Shown here: positions 2,778 through 30,289 of the stretch, piece after piece | Layout: each line of letters begins with the position of its first letter | Numbering within the stretch: the first letter of the stretch is position 1 | Source of the DNA: Bacteroidales bacterium | GTDB taxonomy: Bacteria > Planctomycetota > Planctomycetia > Gemmatales > Gemmataceae | NCBI GenBank assembly: GCA_026931725.1 | Contig: JAIXLE010000222.1 | Span: 1-64,000 of the forward strand | DNA: 64,000 nucleotides | Reading direction: 5' to 3' | Made by a program: the position numbers and the translations under genes | Notes under the pieces: generated by a model | What the model saw: the letters and a program-made list of their open reading frames with translations, nothing else | What the model was told of the DNA's origin: nothing | The model's database searches: none

Positions 2778-3947
2778 TCAGGCGGCATGCCGATGCATTC
2801 GCAACGACTGAAATAACCGAACAAGCGATTGATAGTGCTTTTCAAATGTCCAGCGAGCGGCCGCCTGGCGAGCAGAAACTGCGGCCGAACGGCGATAATT
2901 CGCATCAGTCATTCGTTCGATCGCTTGTCCCAATTCCTGACGATCATGGGGATCGGATACCACCAAACCATTTTCGGGGACCGTCAACAATTCACTGGCA
3001 CCATTGTACTGAGACGTGATGACAGGCAACCCGCACGCCAACGCCTCAAGGGCCACCAAAGAGCAAGGATCATAAAATGTGGGGTGAACCAAAAAGTCCG
3101 AGGCAAAGTAACAATCACGCGGATCCTGGCGATGTCCCAAAAAGAGGAACCGTTCCGCCACACCCAGACGGCTAGCCAGTCGGCGATACTGGGAGACTTT
3201 GGGATGTCCCACAACAGCAATACGGAATCGCCGAGATACCGGGACCACAGCGGCCGCTTCAATGAGAGGGGCCAACCCTTTGAGGCGATAGTTCATGGCC
3301 ACGAATAGGCCAACGGGTTCATCGGCGGAAACGCCCCATTTGTCCCGTTCCGCCTGACGACGGAGAAACCGATCCTCAGCGGCGAATCGCAGGGGGTCGA
3401 TCGCGCTGTACACAACGTGGACATCTTCAGCAGGAATACCGAGAAACCGCTCGAAATGACGCTGCACCATTCGGCTATTGACGACAATGGTGGGTCGTTT
3501 GGCTCCGAGATACTGTTTGCGTTCCAATCGGGAAAACGAGTAGCGCGCCAAGTCCAGTGACTTACCCACTTGGGCCATGAATCGGGACAGCGCATTGGGA
3601 CATTTCAACAAGTTGTGGTACTGGCTCGCCGCATGGAGCCCACCCTGGGGATAGAGGATGTCCTGCCCCCAGGTCTTGTCAAAACCGATACTGACATCGT
3701 GCTGATTGTGGGACAACGCCTCTTCACAAGCGGCCCCAAACCGCCACGGTCGCAGGAACCGGGGGCCACTGGGGACATCGAGACGATGATAATGCGTGGA
3801 GGCAGGAAGGGAACTCGCGTCCCAACGACACGCGTACAAATGCACGGCATGGCCATCGCACGCAAGTCGCCGGGCGAGATCACCGATATACGTTTCCGCA
3901 CCGCCCCGAGCAGGGAGAACGGATTCATAGCACAGTGCCACATCCAT
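2778..3947 (-). CDS. GT4-family glycosyltransferase, WaaG-like LPS core enzyme
   Basis: Retaining GT-B glycosyltransferase of 389 residues, the usual WaaG length. The N-terminal sugar-acceptor loop is ARGGAETYIGDLARRL. The C-terminal nucleotide-sugar motif is YDPCSLVALEALACGLPVI near residues 290-310, an E-x7-E type signature. The start at 3947 (MDVALCYES) is chosen because it falls 5 bases after the stop of the upstream kinase gene and begins directly with the first Rossmann strand; a longer in-frame extension upstream overlaps that kinase and looks noncoding. Being last in a chain of LPS genes (lpxK, heptosyltransferase, kinases) supports a role in adding hexose to the inner core. The exact sugar cannot be read from the sequence. 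Confidence 0.85.
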   Translation of the reverse strand: MDVALCYESVLPARGGAETYIGDLARRLACDGHAVHLYACRWDASSLPASTHYHRLDVPSGPRFLRPWRFGAACEEALSHNQHDVSIGFDKTWGQDILYPQGGLHAASQYHNLLKCPNALSRFMAQVGKSLDLARYSFSRLERKQYLGAKRPTIVVNSRMVQRHFERFLGIPAEDVHVVYSAIDPLRFAAEDRFLRRQAERDKWGVSADEPVGLFVAMNYRLKGLAPLIEAAAVVPVSRRFRIAVVGHPKVSQYRRLASRLGVAERFLFLGHRQDPRDCYFASDFLVHPTFYDPCSLVALEALACGLPVITSQYNGASELLTVPENGLVVSDPHDRQELGQAIERMTDANYRRSAAVSARQAAARWTFEKHYQSLVRLFQSLRMHRHAA

Positions 3948-3952
3948 GTGAG

Positions 3953-4882
3953 TCACTCCGGTTTCGTGGTTTGAGTCTGACGTTGCGCCCGTGCCGCCCG
4001 GCGGGCATGATGGCGTTGGTACAATTTCCATTTCCACTTCACCAGGATGCGGAGCCAGTCCGACGGCGCGGAGGCTGTGTCCCAATTCCCGGAACGATAG
4101 AGTTTCCAGAATCGCAACCGATCGCGGTGTGTCACTCCCTCGACAGCGGATGAATTCCACAACTGGGCCACATCTTTGATCTGATACCAGAGTCCCAATA
4201 TGGAATGCCGTCCCAGACGGTGAAAGTCAATCATCACAACGCGGCCCTGCCAGCCGTCCGGGACGTGCTGAGTGTCCGATTGCAGAATGTAAAAGTGGCA
4301 AAAGTAAAGGTCTTTATGAAACGCTCGGCGACGGTGCAATTCTCGACTGAGACGAGCCAGTTCCGCGACCAGCCCTCGTTTCCAGGTCGCGAACTGGGAC
4401 GCGGACAAGGACTGAGCAGCGAGCGGTACCGCCTCATGCAAGCCGATCATCCCAGTAAGTTCTTCCACCGCGATGAACCCTTGGACACGCAAACCCGGTG
4501 TCACCCATTGTCCCACGGCTTGAACGATGGGGACCGGCAACCCCTGGGACCGTGCCCAGTTGAGATTGTGCCATTCTTCCAACCCCGGTGACCAAGCCCG
4601 AGACGGGAAGAGCGCAGCCAGCACCCCCCGCCATCGGGGGAGCTGGTAATGCCGTTTCAGATAGACGACGAGGTCCGAACTTGAGACACGGGACAGCGTC
4701 CAACGAGCGATGGTCCGCCCTTGCTTGGCATGAAATCGGTCGGTCACCGATTCGGCCATGATGCGAGTTTCCCAGCCATCCCCAACGCATTCCTGCCACG
4801 CGGGGAGACAGTGAACAGAAGACCGGCGAGACAGGAAGCGATCCCGGAAGAGTCGAGCGAGTCCGCGTAAATCTGTTCGCAT
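3953..4882 (-). CDS. WaaP/InaA-family lipopolysaccharide core kinase
   Basis: Protein-kinase-like fold enzyme (309 residues) expected to phosphorylate core heptose at the cytoplasmic face. Seen: a candidate ATP-binding lysine in VVYLKRHYQ (K76), the catalytic loop AFHKDLYFCHFYI (H189-K190-D191), which closely matches the HRDCYICHF type of WaaP, and the metal-binding Asp in VMIDFHRLGR (D219). The C-terminus is very basic. The ATG overlaps the stop of the preceding dual-kinase gene (TAATG), indicating translational coupling; the GT4 gene starts 5 bases after its own stop. The substrate assignment to LPS heptose is inferred from family and neighbours. Confidence 0.85.
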   Translation of the reverse strand: MRTDLRGLARLFRDRFLSRRSSVHCLPAWQECVGDGWETRIMAESVTDRFHAKQGRTIARWTLSRVSSSDLVVYLKRHYQLPRWRGVLAALFPSRAWSPGLEEWHNLNWARSQGLPVPIVQAVGQWVTPGLRVQGFIAVEELTGMIGLHEAVPLAAQSLSASQFATWKRGLVAELARLSRELHRRRAFHKDLYFCHFYILQSDTQHVPDGWQGRVVMIDFHRLGRHSILGLWYQIKDVAQLWNSSAVEGVTHRDRLRFWKLYRSGNWDTASAPSDWLRILVKWKWKLYQRHHARRAARAQRQTQTTKPE

Positions 4883-6540
4883 TAAATGACCCTGGCCAAT
4901 AGCCGTTTGCGGAACTGTCGCACATCATGGCCATAGGAGGCGTAACCGTGGGCCATGCGAACATAATCCGTACGAGAGAGTCCCGGCAATACCACTCGGC
5001 ATAAGCGGACAAAGTCCGTGACCCGGCCCCGATCGCGGACCCGCTTGACAAGTCGTATCACGGATGGGGACTCGACAGCCAGTTGGAGTGGACGTGCGAG
5101 CGATGCCAGGAATACCGTGTCTCCAGGGCGAATCGCGCCAAGACGACATCGGGAATCATGCAATTTCCGAAGCATGGCTCCGACTTCTCGCAGGAATGTT
5201 CTCCGCTCATCTGAACATATTGGGAGATCATCTAATCGATCAAAAAGTGACTGGCTTTCTCGCAATGGTTCATAAGCGATAAAGGACATCGCCCGAGCAT
5301 ACGATTGGAGACGTTGGCCAAACCCGAGGAGTCGGGGGCCATCAATGTTGTGTCGGGCCAGATGAAAGAGAATTCTGGCCATTTTGGCAGCAGGGGACCG
5401 CCACGGTCGCTCCCGGATGGCCGCAACGGAACGGGCCAATGGGGCAACCGTCTGGAAGCGTTGCAGGATCGCACGGGTATTGTCCGCAAATGTCAACCAT
5501 TCTTCGGAATTCCCGGATTTCGCTGTGGGGACATCGTCGCGGTAAAAGGGTGAACCGGACACGGGACGCGGCCATAAATCCCGCATTTCGGGGACAATGC
5601 AGACCTCTTCACCATCCAACCAAATGAGACGTTGCGGGGCGGCCGGAGATGTCCGTTGATCTTGGCTGGATGAGCGATGACGGAGACGCACAACCTGGGC
5701 TGCAATGCGCCGAACGTATGCAGAGAATCGGGGTCGTTTTGCCGTCGCATCACGCCGATCGCATCGCTTGAGGACACGCCAATAGGACCACAAGCACCGC
5801 AGTTGCTCGGCTGGAGTCACAAGATGATCGGCCAGGGATGCGGACAATCCGGCCAGTTGCCGGACTCGTTCCGTGAGGTCCGGTATCGGACCTGGTCGCG
5901 CGGATTGCCAGTCCAACAGTGTGACCGCAAACGTCTCAGGATGGACTAGGACGTGTTTGGCGGCGAGGTCCGGCGTACTAAATCCGGCCCTGTGCAACTC
6001 GGCCAATGTCCTACCGATGGATTCCATCAATTGCCGGCGATCACTGACGGTGAGGGAAGGATGACCCAACACAGTTCTCAGATCATCTGCTCCTGAAACC
6101 TGATCGACCAGCAGGAATCCATGTCCTCGTTCATCTTCCCCATAGGCCAGCCATTGTGGACCCGGCAAACCGGCTTGTTCCAGTTGCTGCAGGATCATGG
6201 CTTCTCTTTCGGATCGTGAAACGGGGCCAAACCCGGCGAGGCGATTACGGACACGAGCGCGGACACCCACGACATGTTCCCGCTTCAAAAATGCAATCCG
6301 GCGATTTGTCCCGCGTCCCAGTTCTACTCGCACAACGTGCCGATCGGGGTGGCCGCAAACGATCTCACCGGGCAATGTGGACACGGTCGCGGGTGTGGTC
6401 AATCCACAACGCACGAGCCAAGCGCGATACCGCGGATGGTAAACGATGACCCCACCGTGTGAGTCATGCCCAGGCGGTGTTGGCGGTGCCACGGACACCG
6501 GACGATCGCGTAAAATCCATTGCCTCAGATTAACCGGCAT
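4882..6540 (-). CDS. Dual-domain LPS kinase-like protein (active-type N domain, degenerate C domain)
   Basis: A 552-residue protein with two kinase-like halves. The N-terminal half (about 30-260) has a lysine in IAFLKREH (K86), a catalytic-loop Asp in STPDLAAKHVLV (D191, with His where Asn is usual, as in WaaP) and a metal Asp in LLDWQSAR (D210). The C-terminal half (about 330-552) retains the overall pattern (LHDSRCRLGAIRPGDTVFL) but no HRD-like Asp or DFG-like Asp, so it reads as a pseudokinase half. The start at 6540 is supported by AGGAG 8 bases upstream; in-frame sequence further upstream belongs to the heptosyltransferase gene. It sits in the lpxK-waaF-kinase-kinase-GT4 run and is probably co-transcribed. 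Confidence 0.75.
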   Translation of the reverse strand: MPVNLRQWILRDRPVSVAPPTPPGHDSHGGVIVYHPRYRAWLVRCGLTTPATVSTLPGEIVCGHPDRHVVRVELGRGTNRRIAFLKREHVVGVRARVRNRLAGFGPVSRSEREAMILQQLEQAGLPGPQWLAYGEDERGHGFLLVDQVSGADDLRTVLGHPSLTVSDRRQLMESIGRTLAELHRAGFSTPDLAAKHVLVHPETFAVTLLDWQSARPGPIPDLTERVRQLAGLSASLADHLVTPAEQLRCLWSYWRVLKRCDRRDATAKRPRFSAYVRRIAAQVVRLRHRSSSQDQRTSPAAPQRLIWLDGEEVCIVPEMRDLWPRPVSGSPFYRDDVPTAKSGNSEEWLTFADNTRAILQRFQTVAPLARSVAAIRERPWRSPAAKMARILFHLARHNIDGPRLLGFGQRLQSYARAMSFIAYEPLRESQSLFDRLDDLPICSDERRTFLREVGAMLRKLHDSRCRLGAIRPGDTVFLASLARPLQLAVESPSVIRLVKRVRDRGRVTDFVRLCRVVLPGLSRTDYVRMAHGYASYGHDVRQFRKRLLARVI

Positions 6541-7593
6541 GGCGCGACTCCTGATTTGATCCTTTGGTTCGATCCAGAAGCGTTGTGACCGCGTTCCAGA
6601 CACGATGCGGGTGCAGTTCCGTCATGCACCGATGGTGTCCCAATGGACAAACGCGTTGCTGACACGGACCACAGGGGACTTTTTCTTGTAGATGGATCGC
6701 GCGCGGATAATACGTTTCCGTCCAGGCGATATGCGTACCACAACCACGACAGGTCTGTCAAAGGCCGCCGCGAAATGGCGTGGGCCACTATCCGTGGTGA
6801 CGAGAACTTGCAATCGGCGGGTGAGAGCTTTCGTCAAGCCGAGAGACAATGTGTCCTCACTGAGTCCGACCATATGTGGATGATGGGTTTGGGTAACAAT
6901 GTCCCGCGCAATGTCTCGCTCTGTGGGTCCGCATAAGACCAGGATACCGCAATTGTGGGATTGCACCAATCGGTGAGCCAGTTCGACAAAATGAGACACC
7001 GGCCAATGCTTGGCCGCACCGAAGGCACCACCAGGGTTGAAGCCAATGAGGACGCGGTGCCGACCCAGGTTGTACTTGTCCCAAATGGTGTTGGCAGCTC
7101 GTTCGTCCTCCGAGGTCGTGTGCAGTTCCATTTTATGGCCCGGATTGGGGACACCGAGCAACTGTACGATGCGGTTATAATCGTCGATGATGGGTGCCGG
7201 TTTGGGATGCCCGGTGTGATCCCGCAAGGGGTAAAGTCGCCGTGAAAGTAGGATGTTCCGCCCATACCGTGCGAAACCCACCACGGTCGAACAACCGCCG
7301 TGCCAAGCGAGCAATGCCGAACGGAATGAATTCGGAAATAGGACGGCCGTGTCCACTCGCTCTTGTCGCAAACGCGCTGCGACAGACAGGAAGCCACGCT
7401 CCCCCCTCCAGCGGCGATCGCAGAGTAAGACCTCATCAAACCACCGCGAACCGGCCAAGGTTTCGGCCACATAGGGCTTGCACACCGCATAGGTGCGAGC
7501 TTCCGGGAAGTGGTCCCGTACCGCCCGGATTGCCGGTGTCGCCATGACGACATCGCCGATCCAATTTGGGAGAAAGAGCGCAATCCGTCGCAT
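6530..7593 (-). CDS. waaF: ADP-heptose:LPS heptosyltransferase II, interrupted by an apparent frameshift
   Basis: GT9 heptosyltransferase that adds the second heptose to the LPS inner core. The N-terminus RRIALFLPNWIGDVVMATP is a textbook GT9 start, and TTDSGPRHFAAAFDRPVVV precedes the expected FGPT nucleotide loop. At about 6737 the frame shifts. Read straight through, the protein ends at 6622 with an unrelated tail. Two bases over, the family C-terminus reads on perfectly (THIAWTETYYP, then EKVPCGPCQQRVCPLGHH) to a stop at 6530, overlapping the next gene's start by 11 bases. FGP is missing at the junction, so about 7 bases appear lost. The start at 7593 has GAGG upstream and lies 23 bases after lpxK. 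The uninterrupted continuous frame is 6622-7593. Confidence 0.85.
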
Positions 7594-7616
7594 GCTTGCC
7601 TCGTGACACTCCATTG

Positions 7617-8687
7617 TCACTCATGTGTCATTGCGAGAATATTTTCCAATTGCTGACAAAACTCGGCTTCACCATCCCGGAACGTCATGCCGATTCGGAG
7701 GGCGTACAGTGGGACAGCATTCAGGTCCGCTAGTCGCACTTTTACCCAATCTTTTTGTGTCGTAATGACCCATGCGTCTGCGGGTAGCGTCTTCCCCCAA
7801 TGTCTCAGGTCTTCGACATCGTCACGAGTGTAAGCGTGATGGTCCGGGTAGGACCGAAACGCCGTGACCGTGGCACCGAGTGATTCCAAAGTCTGTTGAA
7901 AGGCCGCCGGGTTGCCGATGCCGCAGAATGCGCCCACAGTGCGACCACGCAGCAGGTCCACGGAAGACGGGGCTTCGTCTGCGCGGATCAATTCCGTGGG
8001 TTCGTGCCGTGCCGATGCCAGGACTTTGGTGGGGCATCGTTTTCGCCAGAAGGACTGCATTTGACCCAATGCGTCCGCTGGGACTTGGTCGCAGCGTGTG
8101 AGAATCAATGTGTCAGCTCGGCGCAGTTCGCGGACTGTCTCACGGAGTGTCCCGCGCGGGAACAGGTATGCTTGTTCCACGGGTTGCGTCGCATCTAATA
8201 GGACGACGTTGAGTTGCCGAACCAAGCGGCGATGCTGGAAACCATCATCCAGGACCAAGACTTCACATTCGAGTTCTTCCACGGCGGTCGTAGCCAATGC
8301 GGCGCGATCCGCCCCCTGGAGGTGTGGGACATCGGGGAGATTTTCTTCCAGCACCATCGCTTCATCATTGCGACCATCTTCCGCCCCATAGCCGCGGCTC
8401 AGGATCGCCACTTGCACTCCGCGTTCTCGGAAGAAACTGGCTACATATTCCACGCAGGGAGTTTTTCCGGTTCCGCCCAACGTCAGATTGCCAATGCTGA
8501 CCACGGGAGCGGGTGCCGTGGTTGATTTCAGTATTTTCAGATCAAAAAGACGATTCCGTGTCCATGCGATGATGCCGTATGGGATGCGGAGCCACCATAG
8601 CCCCCAGCGGATCAGAGTTGGACCCACTCCGCGATCTTTGCCGGTGATGATTCGGTGAAACCACGCTGCTCGATCGCTCACGCACAC
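7617..8687 (-). CDS. lpxK: Tetraacyldisaccharide 4'-kinase LpxK
   Basis: Phosphorylates the 4' position of the tetraacyl-disaccharide 1-phosphate to make lipid IVA, at the inner membrane. The Walker A motif GNLTLGGTGKTP is at residues 66-77, and the family signature DDGFQHRRL is at 147-155. LSRGYG follows the Walker A helix, and DHHAYTRDD and VITTQKDWVK, typical of the C-terminal half, are present. The length of 356 is normal. The start is GTG at 8687; a second GTG two codons on is equally possible, and no strong ribosome-binding site is visible. First gene of the minus-strand LPS run. It is direct evidence that the organism makes lipid A. Confidence 0.95.
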   Translation of the reverse strand: MCVSDRAAWFHRIITGKDRGVGPTLIRWGLWWLRIPYGIIAWTRNRLFDLKILKSTTAPAPVVSIGNLTLGGTGKTPCVEYVASFFRERGVQVAILSRGYGAEDGRNDEAMVLEENLPDVPHLQGADRAALATTAVEELECEVLVLDDGFQHRRLVRQLNVVLLDATQPVEQAYLFPRGTLRETVRELRRADTLILTRCDQVPADALGQMQSFWRKRCPTKVLASARHEPTELIRADEAPSSVDLLRGRTVGAFCGIGNPAAFQQTLESLGATVTAFRSYPDHHAYTRDDVEDLRHWGKTLPADAWVITTQKDWVKVRLADLNAVPLYALRIGMTFRDGEAEFCQQLENILAMTHE

Positions 8688-8789
8688 ACACCGCTAGAGA
8701 TTGCAAAATTCTGGTGGTGTGTTGTAACAGGTGAGAAAGTGAGCCGTCAACCGCAGGTCCGCCCGGCGGCGAAGACAGGTTTTACCCTG

Positions 8790-11700
8790 TTATGATTGTG
8801 GAAACCAAGCCTGTAGCGGGGTGACGGTAATTTCTCGCTCCCGCAGGGCTCGGCACGCTTCCACGGCGGCATAAGCGGCTGGGATGGTCGTGATGCAGGT
8901 GACGCGGTTCGCCACGGCAGCCGCGCGAATCTTCCCTTCATCGGTACGACTGCCCCGACCGCTGGGCGTGTTGATGATGAGCTGGACTTCCCCATTTTTC
9001 ATGTAGTCGAGCAAGTTAGGCCGGCCTTCTTGAATTTTGGGGACATCGGTCACGGGGATCCCCTGTTCCCGAAAATGGTTCGCGGTGCCGTGGGTGGCCA
9101 GGATGCGATAGCCCATCTCTGCAAATTGCCGGGCCACGGGTGCGATTTCCAGCTTGTCCGCGGATGTGACCGAAATGAAGATCGACCCTTTCACGGGTAG
9201 CGGGGCGCTGGCAGCCATCTGGGATTTCGCAAACGCCATCGGGAAATCCGCGTCAATCCCCATAACCTCGCCAGTGGAACGCATTTCCGGGCCGAGAATA
9301 ATGTCGACACCGGGGAACTTGTTGAACGGGAAGACACTTTCCTTTACGGAATAATGTGTCGGGATAATCTCATCGGCGACACCGAGTTCATCTAATGTTT
9401 TGCCCGCCATGACCAGTGCCGCGAGTCGGGCGATGGGCACGCCGGTCGCTTTCGAGACAAACGGCACGGTCCGACTGGCTCGGGGGTTGGCTTCCAGAAT
9501 GTAGACTTCGGGCTTGCCGCCGACTGAGCCCGGCCCGATTCCCGTGACCGCGAATTGGAGATTCATCAGCCCTTTCACCCGCAGTTCGGCGGCGAGTTTG
9601 CGGGCTTGCAGACGAATTTCCTCAATGACGGCAGCGGGCAAACTGTGCGGAGGAATGACGCAGGCCGAGTCGCCAGAATGGATGCCCGCTTCCTCAATGT
9701 GTTGCATCACGCCGCCGATGACTGTGCGTGTGCCATCCGAGAGGCAATCGACATCGACCTCCGTGGCATCCTCCAGGAACTTATCAATCAGAACGGGCTT
9801 TCCGGGTGAGGCATCTATGGCGCGAGCCATGTACCGCGAGAGCGATTCTTCGTCGTATACGATCTCCATGGCTCGGCCACCGAGAACAAAACTTGGCCGA
9901 ACCAGCACGGGGTAGCCGATGCGGGCTGCTTTGATGAGCGCACTCGGCAAGTCGTAGGCAATTTCGTTGGCGGGTTGCTTCAGGCCAAGACGTTCTACGA
10001 GTGCGGCGAACTCTTCGCGGTCTTCCGCCATGTCGATACTTTCGACACTGGTGCCGATGATGGGCACGCCGTTATTGGCGAGCGCCCGCGCCAAGTTGAG
10101 GGGTGTCTGTCCGCCGAACTGCACGATGACGCCATCCGGCTTCATCCGTTCGTAGATGTTGAGGACATCTTCCACGGTGAGCGGTTCAAAGAACAGGTGG
10201 TTACTGGTGTCGTAATCGGTACTGACCGTTTCGGGGTTCGAGTTCACCATAATGACTTCGTACCCGGCATCCCGCAGGGCGAAGGCGGCTTGCACACAGC
10301 AGTAGTCAAACTCGATCCCCTGGCCAATCCGGTTCGGGCCGCCACCGAGAATCATGATGCGGGATTTCCCAGTGAACGGGAGCACTTCATCTTCACTACC
10401 GTTGTGTATATCACCTGATGCAGCGGCTTCATAAGTGCTATAATAATACGGCGTATGGGCCTCAAATTCCGCGGCACAAGTATCAACGGATTTGAAAACA
10501 GCCGTCACCCCCATGGCCTTGCGGGTGGCACGAACTTCGGATTCACTGGCTTCCCAGAGATTCGAGAGTTGCTTGTCGACGAACCCGTTCTGCTTAGCCC
10601 GGAGCATTATTTCCGGGGTGATCCGGGCAAGCGGTCCCGCAGCACGGAACTCGTCTTCCATGCGGACCAACTCTTCCATGTTACGAAGGAACCACGGGTC
10701 GATCCGGGTGATGCGGTGAATTTCCTCGAGCGATAACCCGGCCAGCATCGCGTACCGGATGTACCAGATACGATCCGCGTTGGGCGTGGTCAGTTTGTTG
10801 TTGATTTCATCCAGCGTGGGTTGTTGAGGGGTCTTCCACTTGTCCGCACGATCCGCGCCGAGGCCGAAGCGGTTGACTTCGAGCCCACGCAGTGCCTTTT
10901 GCAAGGATTCTTTGAACGTCCGACCAATGGCCATTGTCTCACCGACGGACTTCATTTGTGTCGTCAGGGTCGGGTCGGCATCGGGGAATTTCTCAAATGT
11001 GAAACGGGGAATCTTCGTGACAACATAGTCGATGGTGGGCTCAAAACTGGCGGGGGTGTCGCGGGTGATGTCGTTCTGCAATTCATCGAGAGTGTAACCC
11101 ACGGCGAGCTTGGCTGCGATTTTCGCAATCGGGTAGCCTGTGGCTTTGGAGGCCAGAGCCGATGAACGACTGACGCGGGGGTTCATCTCAATGACAATCA
11201 TACGACCATCGACCGGATTGATGGCGAACTGAATGTTCGAGCCGCCGGTTTCGACACCGATTTCGCGGATGATGGCCTTGGCGGCATCCCGCATCCGCTG
11301 ATACTCTTTGTCCGAGAGCGTCTGGGCCGGGGCGACCGTGATGCTATCGCCGGTATGCACGCCCATCGGGTCGAAGTTCTCAATGGAACAGATGATGATG
11401 ACGTTGTCGGCCTTGTCGCGGATGACTTCGAGTTCGTATTCTTTCCAACCGATGACAGATTCTTCAATCAGAACCTCGCCCACGGGAGAGAGTTCGAGGC
11501 CGTGGGAGATGAGCGTGGTGAATTCTTCTCGGTTGTAAGCGATACCGCCACCGGAACCGCCCATCGTGAAACTGGGGCGCAGCACGCACGGCAACCCGAC
11601 TTGGTCCACGATGGCGAGGGCATCGGCCAGTGAGCGGGCCAAGCCGGATTTCGGCACTTCGACACCGATTTTGAGAACGGCATCCTTAAATTTTTGTCGG

Positions 11701-27404: not shown

Positions 27405-30095
27405 TTACCGCATGTCCCAATGGGCGATGGAGCCGAACAGTGTCCCAAAGTCTAGGAGTTGTGCCGGAGTATCCGTGTTCCAGCCATCCAGACGGATTTT
27501 GAGGCTGCTCGCTATGACCATGTGCCGATCGAGCCGCCAGAGGGGAATGAACGGCATGACCGTGTTGAACTGATGATGAATCTCGTGAGCCAATGGTAAG
27601 AGTTTCCCGTCCACATCCTGATAAAAGCGTGCCTGCGACAAGAGCCGCCCCAACGCATCATCCGCTGGTGTGGGATGTGTTCCCGGAACGAGATAGCCGC
27701 ACAGGTTCCGACCATGCGATTGCGCCGCATTCGGATCGAGTAGACTGGCCAGTGTTTGCGGATACCAGTCGTTCGGATAACGGAAAGGAAGATACGCCAA
27801 GTCATAAGCATGCAGCTGCTCGGTAGTCTCCACCAGTTTCTGAGGCGGCAACGGCACCAATTCGAGACGGACACCCGACTCGGTCGCGGACACGGCGGCC
27901 CGAATGGCTTCACACGCGGCTTGCGCGGAAGGGTCATCATTCGGGAAGGCCAGCGAAAGCGTTGCGGGGCCGCCCGCCATCCGATACGCCTTGAGCTTGG
28001 CGGTGGCCAATTCCCCATCATGCAGAGGGTCCAGGGGGACCGCTGGACTCGCCCAGCAACCGGGCAGGAACGGCCCTGTCATCGCCTTATGATACCGATT
28101 CTGACCCGCGCGAAAGACGGTATTCAAAATCTGTTCTCGGTCGATGGCCAGGGACAACCCCCGACGCAAATCGACAGACTGCAAAGCGGGTCGACGATGA
28201 TTCACGGCCAAATAATGAAATTGTCGGGGCGTTTGCGCGGTGACGATACGGACCCGGCCACCGAGAAACCCTTCGGCTTGATACCGCGGCAATTCGGCTG
28301 TGGGGACATCGGTAAGCAAATGCAGACGATCGCCCCGAAACTCGGCGGGTAAGTCCGGTTTGGCGGTGATGTCGGTGAAACGCACTTCCTTGATGAGCGG
28401 CAACCCCGCGCAACCGGGCCGACGACCATAACTGGGGTTGCTGACGAACACGACATCGTTTCCTGACCCCTTCCCACGTTCCAGGCGAAACGGCCCCGTG
28501 CCGACCGGAGCTTGGGCGAACTGGAGATCATCCGCACTGAAGCCGTGGGCTTGGAACCACCGCGCCGGCAAAATCTTGAACGTCAACAGCGAACGCGGAT
28601 CAGGATGACTCCGGCGGAAGTGCAGTTGGACGTGTGCGGGATGATGCGGGTCGATCGTGGGTTTGCCCAACCAGTCCGCCGCATCCGCCGCCCAGTTGCC
28701 GGGAGTTTGTTGGAGCAACGCGACCGTGTCCACCACATCGGCGGGGTCGAATCGACCGAAACTCGGGTTGGCCCACAACGCGGATAGCACCAGGGGAAAA
28801 TCGCGTGTCCCATCCGCGGCTTGGGGGCGATCCGCAGCCAGATGAGGGACATAGCGGATACCCAATCCTCCCGCATCATCGCCAGTGGCCGATGGCGGCA
28901 AATCCGGCACGGCGGCGAGCAATCCTTCAAACAGGAGTTCCACGGCCTGACGTTCACTGTCGAACCGGGCTGTCGCGGGAGACATCCGCTCGGGAAGGCG
29001 GCAAGTCCCGACGATGAGTATGGAGTACCCTGCTTTCAGGTCACGCTGCGTGTTCCGCAAACCGGGTTGATCGGGATTGAGCGCTTCGACGGTTTTGAGC
29101 AGATTCTGCGCTTGGCTGGGGTCCGTGGCCGCGATCCGCTCGGCTTCCTGGAACAGTTTATCCGCACGCTCATGCAGTTGGACACGCACGCGGACAGCCA
29201 CCGGATTTTTGGACTCGGGGAACTGGGCATCGTATGCGGTGAGCCGGTTCCGCAGTTGCTCCAGATCGGGGATTTTGCCGCTTTTCGCCACCGATTCCGC
29301 CTCGGCAAGGCGTGCCGCGAGTATCGGTTCGAGGACGGCCCGATTCCGAGCATACTGCGGATCGGCCAGCAACTCCGTCGCCAGGGTCCGCACCAAAGGC
29401 CAGTCCCGATCCTCCACGGCCCGATTGACACGGGCGATCCGCACGTCCGTCAACCGTGTTTGCAACGCATCCGCCAAGGGTTGCCATTCCTCACCCCGCC
29501 GACGGTTCTGGTCCCGTGCGGTGCTGTGGAAGAGGAGTACCCGCGCCAACACGATTTCACAGGCGGCCAACCGCACCGCCACGGATGGCCCATCCGGTTC
29601 GGCAAGCAGGCGATCGACCTCACTCACGGCAATCTGTTCAAAAGGTTCTATCCGACGCACCGATTTCACCGCCAGGGAATCCACTTCCCCCGGTTGTTGC
29701 GCGGAGTTGAGCGGGACGACTCCAAATGGGTCGGGGAACTTTTTGCGATCGTTCGGAAACAGCAAGGGCAACGGGGTGACACGCAGTACGCGGCCATCCG
29801 CCAAGGTCACGCGGTCAAATGCGGTGGTCAATCCGTTGAGAAATTGTTGAACCCGCCGATCCGTCGCCTGCGCCGCGGACTGGGCGATGGGACGGAGTCG
29901 AACAAAATACGCACCTTCCGGGATCTTTTCGGGAAGATCTTCATCAACGAGAATGGTCTGAAATTTCTTCGGTGGGTTGGGATCCAGTTCTTCTACGGGG
30001 AAACCAGAACGCGGTGGAACCTGGGCGAGCAAGGCCACGGAACCCAGTGTGATGAGCATCCCCAATATCAGAGGAAGTCGCGTTCGGCGGATCAT
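27405..30095 (-). CDS. Large family 5 extracellular solute-binding protein with N-terminal extension
   Basis: An 896-residue protein with an N-terminal hydrophobic signal (LILGMLITLGSVALLAQ). The C-terminal part (about 370-890) reads as an oligopeptide/dipeptide-type SBP_bac_5 domain: ERQAVELLFEGLLA, TFKILPARWF, VGTGPFRLERGKGSG, RRGLSLAIDREQILNTVF and GPFLPGCWASP. The N-terminal 350 residues are an extra Ala/Arg/Glu-rich helical region with TPR-like spacing (NLLKTVEALNPDQPGLRNTQRDL), not part of a standard binding protein. No permease or ATPase genes are nearby, and no lipobox cysteine is seen. It may be a fused sensor or chaperone rather than a transporter subunit. Confidence 0.8.
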   Translation of the reverse strand: MIRRTRLPLILGMLITLGSVALLAQVPPRSGFPVEELDPNPPKKFQTILVDEDLPEKIPEGAYFVRLRPIAQSAAQATDRRVQQFLNGLTTAFDRVTLADGRVLRVTPLPLLFPNDRKKFPDPFGVVPLNSAQQPGEVDSLAVKSVRRIEPFEQIAVSEVDRLLAEPDGPSVAVRLAACEIVLARVLLFHSTARDQNRRRGEEWQPLADALQTRLTDVRIARVNRAVEDRDWPLVRTLATELLADPQYARNRAVLEPILAARLAEAESVAKSGKIPDLEQLRNRLTAYDAQFPESKNPVAVRVRVQLHERADKLFQEAERIAATDPSQAQNLLKTVEALNPDQPGLRNTQRDLKAGYSILIVGTCRLPERMSPATARFDSERQAVELLFEGLLAAVPDLPPSATGDDAGGLGIRYVPHLAADRPQAADGTRDFPLVLSALWANPSFGRFDPADVVDTVALLQQTPGNWAADAADWLGKPTIDPHHPAHVQLHFRRSHPDPRSLLTFKILPARWFQAHGFSADDLQFAQAPVGTGPFRLERGKGSGNDVVFVSNPSYGRRPGCAGLPLIKEVRFTDITAKPDLPAEFRGDRLHLLTDVPTAELPRYQAEGFLGGRVRIVTAQTPRQFHYLAVNHRRPALQSVDLRRGLSLAIDREQILNTVFRAGQNRYHKAMTGPFLPGCWASPAVPLDPLHDGELATAKLKAYRMAGGPATLSLAFPNDDPSAQAACEAIRAAVSATESGVRLELVPLPPQKLVETTEQLHAYDLAYLPFRYPNDWYPQTLASLLDPNAAQSHGRNLCGYLVPGTHPTPADDALGRLLSQARFYQDVDGKLLPLAHEIHHQFNTVMPFIPLWRLDRHMVIASSLKIRLDGWNTDTPAQLLDFGTLFGSIAHWDMR

Positions 30096-30289
30096 GCGAT
30101 TTTCTCCCGATTCGTGCGAAACCCATTCGCCGATGGCGTGTTCATTCTATCGTCTGGTTCGGTCGGCATTCGCGAGCTCGCAAATTCAGCGAACCTCTCC
30201 GAAACAGCCTGCGTGCCAGATCGTGTCCCTCAACCTGTGGGCGAGGGGTTCACGGGTAATTCAGTTCTGGGTTCTTTCCGAGGTTTCCC

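Follow-up and report, generated by a model that had tools for sequence, protein, structure and literature searches.

A frame-split, heptosyltransferase II-like gene in an assembled Gemmataceae genome

The closest described counterparts of the gene considered here are the heptosyltransferases WaaF/RfaF of family GT9 (TIGR02195, PDB 1psw), with which it shares the body fold and motifs. Passages of PMC12844343 describe small indels and substitutions in waaF of phage-stressed, phage-coevolved Escherichia coli, including Y287N, and in alignment numbering Y287 is the first residue of the E. coli WaaF YGP, the turn that is missing from the present gene. By analogy, and as far as those passages go, Y287N hints that this turn may matter. 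For HepI, a passage of PMC8124905 places loop residues 282-284 among the hinge anchors in simulations, and in the alignment the HepI GPT ends at 282. A literature search for heptosyltransferase with Planctomycetes returned nothing on topic, as judged by titles and the starts of abstracts. The E. coli mutants were, according to the passages cited above, obtained by laboratory selection and resequencing, whereas the present gene is an assembled sequence alone. Unlike WaaF/RfaF, the gene in the window (the whole 64,000-nucleotide stretch of DNA that was analyzed) is split between two frames, and its body alone scores below the TIGR02195 cut-off.

The gene was located on the minus strand as a GT9, heptosyltransferase II-like ORF of 332 amino acids (6622..7620), identified by homology and by Pfam and NCBIfam profiles. 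Judging by relatives, which start with M-x-x-I-A-L-F-L-P, translation of the homologous protein probably begins at the ATG at 7593. The family match runs to RPVV (about 6745-6739), and the last ~38 residues (6622..6738, minus strand), an out-of-frame end with a low-confidence model, have no significant match among 29 relatives, the single match having an E-value of 0.85. The displaced family C terminus (6530..6736, minus strand) lies in another frame as 68 codons plus TAA, reading from THIAWTETYYP through CGPCQQRVCPLGHHRCM to RHAG and the stop; it matches all 29 relatives with E-values of 1e-30 to 5e-16 and identities of 54-73%, so that the match is not due to chance. Residues 79-293 of the 332-aa ORF match Pfam PF01075 (Glyco_transf_9) with 88.8 bits, well within the gathering cut-off of 22 bits. 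With the NCBIfam heptosyltransferase II profile TIGR02195, residues 14-295 score 112 bits as encoded, falling short of the equivalog cut-off of 134.6 bits, which is a whole-protein score; the displaced tail alone scores 24.1 bits at the end of the profile (positions 300-338), and all three intact relatives tested lie above the cut-off (138.9-151.8 bits). The earlier note, which had read a heptosyltransferase II in family sequence to RPVVV and then onward in the THIAWTETYYP frame, was right as to coordinates and frames, both frames being matched to relatives, and the profile scores of ORF, tail and relatives bear out its naming of the gene, here worded as heptosyltransferase II-like. In planctomycetes, this identity rests on homology and operon context, with putative transfer of heptose to heptose I.

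The two frames meet at the junction GTGGTTGTGGT (6737..6747, minus strand), as placed by sequence and alignment. Between the PVV codons and the T of THIAW lie 15 nt in all 29 relatives but 8 nt in the window, a net change of -7 that agrees with the loss of about 7 bases proposed earlier. The conserved piece missing from the gene is [TSA][LI][FY]GP, present in all 29 relatives, and the conserved FGP previously noted as absent is indeed lacking. The indel falls right after the DSGPRH segment, with DSGPRH and everything N-terminal of it intact. Among the 11 junction bases, GTGGT occurs twice, six bases apart, as read directly from the sequence, and this direct repeat is suggestive of slippage during replication or of a templated micro-indel. 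Simple-repeat phase variation was rejected, since the repeat unit seen is six bases long (GTGGTT GTGGT) and gain or loss of a GTGGTT unit keeps the frame. Translation restart for the tail was also ruled out, as no ATG, GTG or TTG precedes its internal Met.

To judge whether the short ending is a normal variant, the condition under which the earlier note would have withdrawn its reading, relatives were compared across the cross point. The first search covered 59 genomes, including the window's own genome and without a congener; the best matches from 29 other genomes (L002-L030) all run unbroken in frame through PV[VI][TSA][LI][FY]GPT to the end. Six of the 58 other genomes (G005, G011, G018, G034, G045 and G058) have no close match, three of these six being at least 90% complete, and G002 has fragments only. 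A single-protein scan of genome contigs found no relative, whereas an alignment-based scan did, yielding 80 further loci (L071-L150, the best 80 of 567 relatives), many of them from Gemmataceae, Gemmata, Fimbriiglobus or Planctomycetota. The two sets together comprise 109 loci with L002 included, 97 of them distinct and 12 duplicated between sets, all chosen by similarity to the body and not to the tail. When the intact L002 protein served as query, the alignment passed the point in a single frame at 106 of 108 loci (28 plus the best 80 of 567), and at the other two, L091 and L149, a contig end interrupts the gene; the window locus is the only split one, its two adjacent frames matching residues 1-283 and 289-357, consecutive parts of one intact protein, as in a frameshift pseudogene. 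A motif regular expression was passed by 64 of the 80 loci (best 80 of 567), and inspection of the 16 failures revealed 10 motif variants in one frame, four loci with DSGPRF for DSGPRH in one frame and two contig-end cuts. These data show that the assembled gene is frame-split and that its relatives are not, with the short form in none of the 108 loci (28 plus the best 80 of 567).

The same comparison bears on programmed or tolerated frameshifting, in which ribosomes would change frame at the junction and so produce an almost full-length protein whose turn is altered. A one-base backward shift, as read from the sequence, would bring the two frames together again with a loss of two residues, and the tail is conserved, as such a mechanism would predict; nevertheless, neither of the features sought for a programmed -1 shift, an X-XXY-YYZ slippery heptamer (none in 6700-6800) or a split conserved in relatives (0 of 108), was found, the latter count implying that the family has no programmed frameshift site, and the [FY]GP that is near-invariant elsewhere would stay missing. 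Frameshifting is therefore considered very improbable. The idea that the short form still functions, as a variant ending in a new C terminus, is held to be equally improbable: the intact state of DSGPRH and of all that precedes it could speak for such a product, but the new end has neither homology nor a confident fold, the last helix and four invariant cysteines are gone, and the short form does not recur among the relatives surveyed.

Structure prediction illustrates what the assembled product lacks. The model of an intact relative, whose best match is E. coli WaaF (1psw, E-value 4e-20), has a mean pLDDT of 90.2 and contains a helix at 291-297, a strand at 301-303 and a helix at 331-344, with pLDDT of 67-96 over the corresponding residues 291-350. 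The model of the window protein drops to pLDDT 37-52 in blocks after residue 300, remaining below 50 at 301-326, and the product is without the last helix and the four cysteines of the intact protein; those cysteines, invariant across all 29 relatives, belong to a stretch that lies wholly inside the displaced tail. A truncated product without the FGP turn, this stretch and the C-terminal helix would be expected to be inactive or unstable, and if so, the LPS core would be without the HepII-added sugar and anything built on that sugar.

The stretch is itself a characteristic of the planctomycete members, in which CGPCQxRxCP..H.CM near the C terminus (L002 residues 310-326) has four cysteines and one histidine invariant in all 29 relatives; in the alignment, the cysteines of this CGPC..R.CP..H.CM stretch are absent from E. 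coli WaaF. The arrangement is reminiscent of the iron finger of TibC, also built on four cysteines, as described in part of PMC4358343, although the spacing differs, and putative metal binding may be proposed by analogy.

The displaced tail bears no mark of decay: its mean identity to the 29 relatives is 62.1%, against 53.9% for the window body, and the corresponding values among the relatives themselves are 62.6% and 55.3%. Thus, the tail looks as constrained as in intact relatives, which implies that the change is either recent or an artifact. With modest confidence, the locus is read as a waaF/heptosyltransferase-II-like gene (GT9) from an uncultured member of the Gemmataceae, with a real, recent, net -7 nt out-of-frame indel that exists in the DNA of the assembled strain at least. 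The competing explanation, which is possible but considered less probable, is an assembly or consensus error, in which the organism carries an intact gene and bases were lost or wrongly joined during metagenomic assembly, either at the short GTGGT repeat or at a position that varies among strains. Such an error would be in keeping with a single draft genome of 284 contigs, with a close match in most of the 58 other genomes, and with the intact remainder of the operon and the undecayed tail, a state compatible with an error and with a young mutation alike; the one Kdo transferase gene of the own genome and a heptose-kinase gene that scores over its family cut-off, both intact, would also be left so by an error. 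Interrupted ORFs serve as an indicator of indel errors in the methods section of a paper on such errors in MAGs.

On the other side, no homopolymer of at least five bases occurs within 6700-6800, and the own genome's 56 ABC_tran and 66 Pkinase matches (short domains only) included no complementary pieces in different frames, nor was any other window gene matched by relatives' ORFs frame-split. The lack of other frame-splits in these two large families and of such a homopolymer at the site tips the balance slightly from an assembly error toward a genuine loss-of-function allele of recent origin. Assembly k-mers are far longer than the GTGGT repeat, which also counts against an error. Contigs of the own genome span 2-86 kb among 20 sampled, lengths that look like those of a short-read assembly, and 7-nt consensus indels are unusual in short-read assemblies. 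Of the short Pkinase matches fetched, three lie at contig ends and one, on contig C248, is a truncated gene. There (28400-30200, L155), the protein kinase domain stops after HRDIKPANVLID and unrelated sequence follows; the three reading frames inspected show no kinase C-lobe.

Annotation of the HepII-like gene should mark it as a waaF-like gene with a disrupted frame rather than as a 332-aa enzyme. If the allele is real, loss of the HepII-added core sugar would be tolerated, which fits the genomes without a close match. It is rather unlikely that the allele is both real and selected, for example by phage with the LPS core as receptor, such that a Gemmataceae population with a truncated core would represent a natural deep-rough planctomycete. 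Otherwise, the import is small: the finding is correct as described and ordinary in kind, a recent mutation or an assembly slip of the usual sort, the two not being fully separable from sequence alone.

The surrounding operon, on the minus strand throughout, is intact: domain matches identify lpxK upstream (7617..8687) and, following the split gene, a Kdo/WaaP-type kinase (4882..6603, with a likely start at the ATG at 6540), a second such kinase (3953..4882) and a GT4 glycosyltransferase (2778..4160). The order lpxK, HepII-like gene, kinase, kinase, GT4 recurs in relatives, and the other four genes are single-frame in the window. The TAA of the tail and the ATG of the following gene share an overlap of 11 nt, and 9 of 29 relatives have an identical one, in accord with the operonic overlap proposed in the earlier note. 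When relatives' ORFs were matched to window genes, 12 split rows were obtained, nine of them for the HepII-like gene; the remaining three (L032 761-1474, L035 17934-18395 and L045 16511-18424, all plus strand) stem from antisense shadow ORFs and were left out of the count. The own genome has no second copy of the gene; a total of two GT9 genes are present, this one and a distant paralogue with 29% identity. In two other genomes, a heptose-kinase (rfaE domain I) gene lies directly upstream of the HepII gene (G008:C1 near 1936174-1938520 and G015:C100 near 7414-9742), unlike in the window's genome, where the heptose-kinase gene is on a separate contig, C69.
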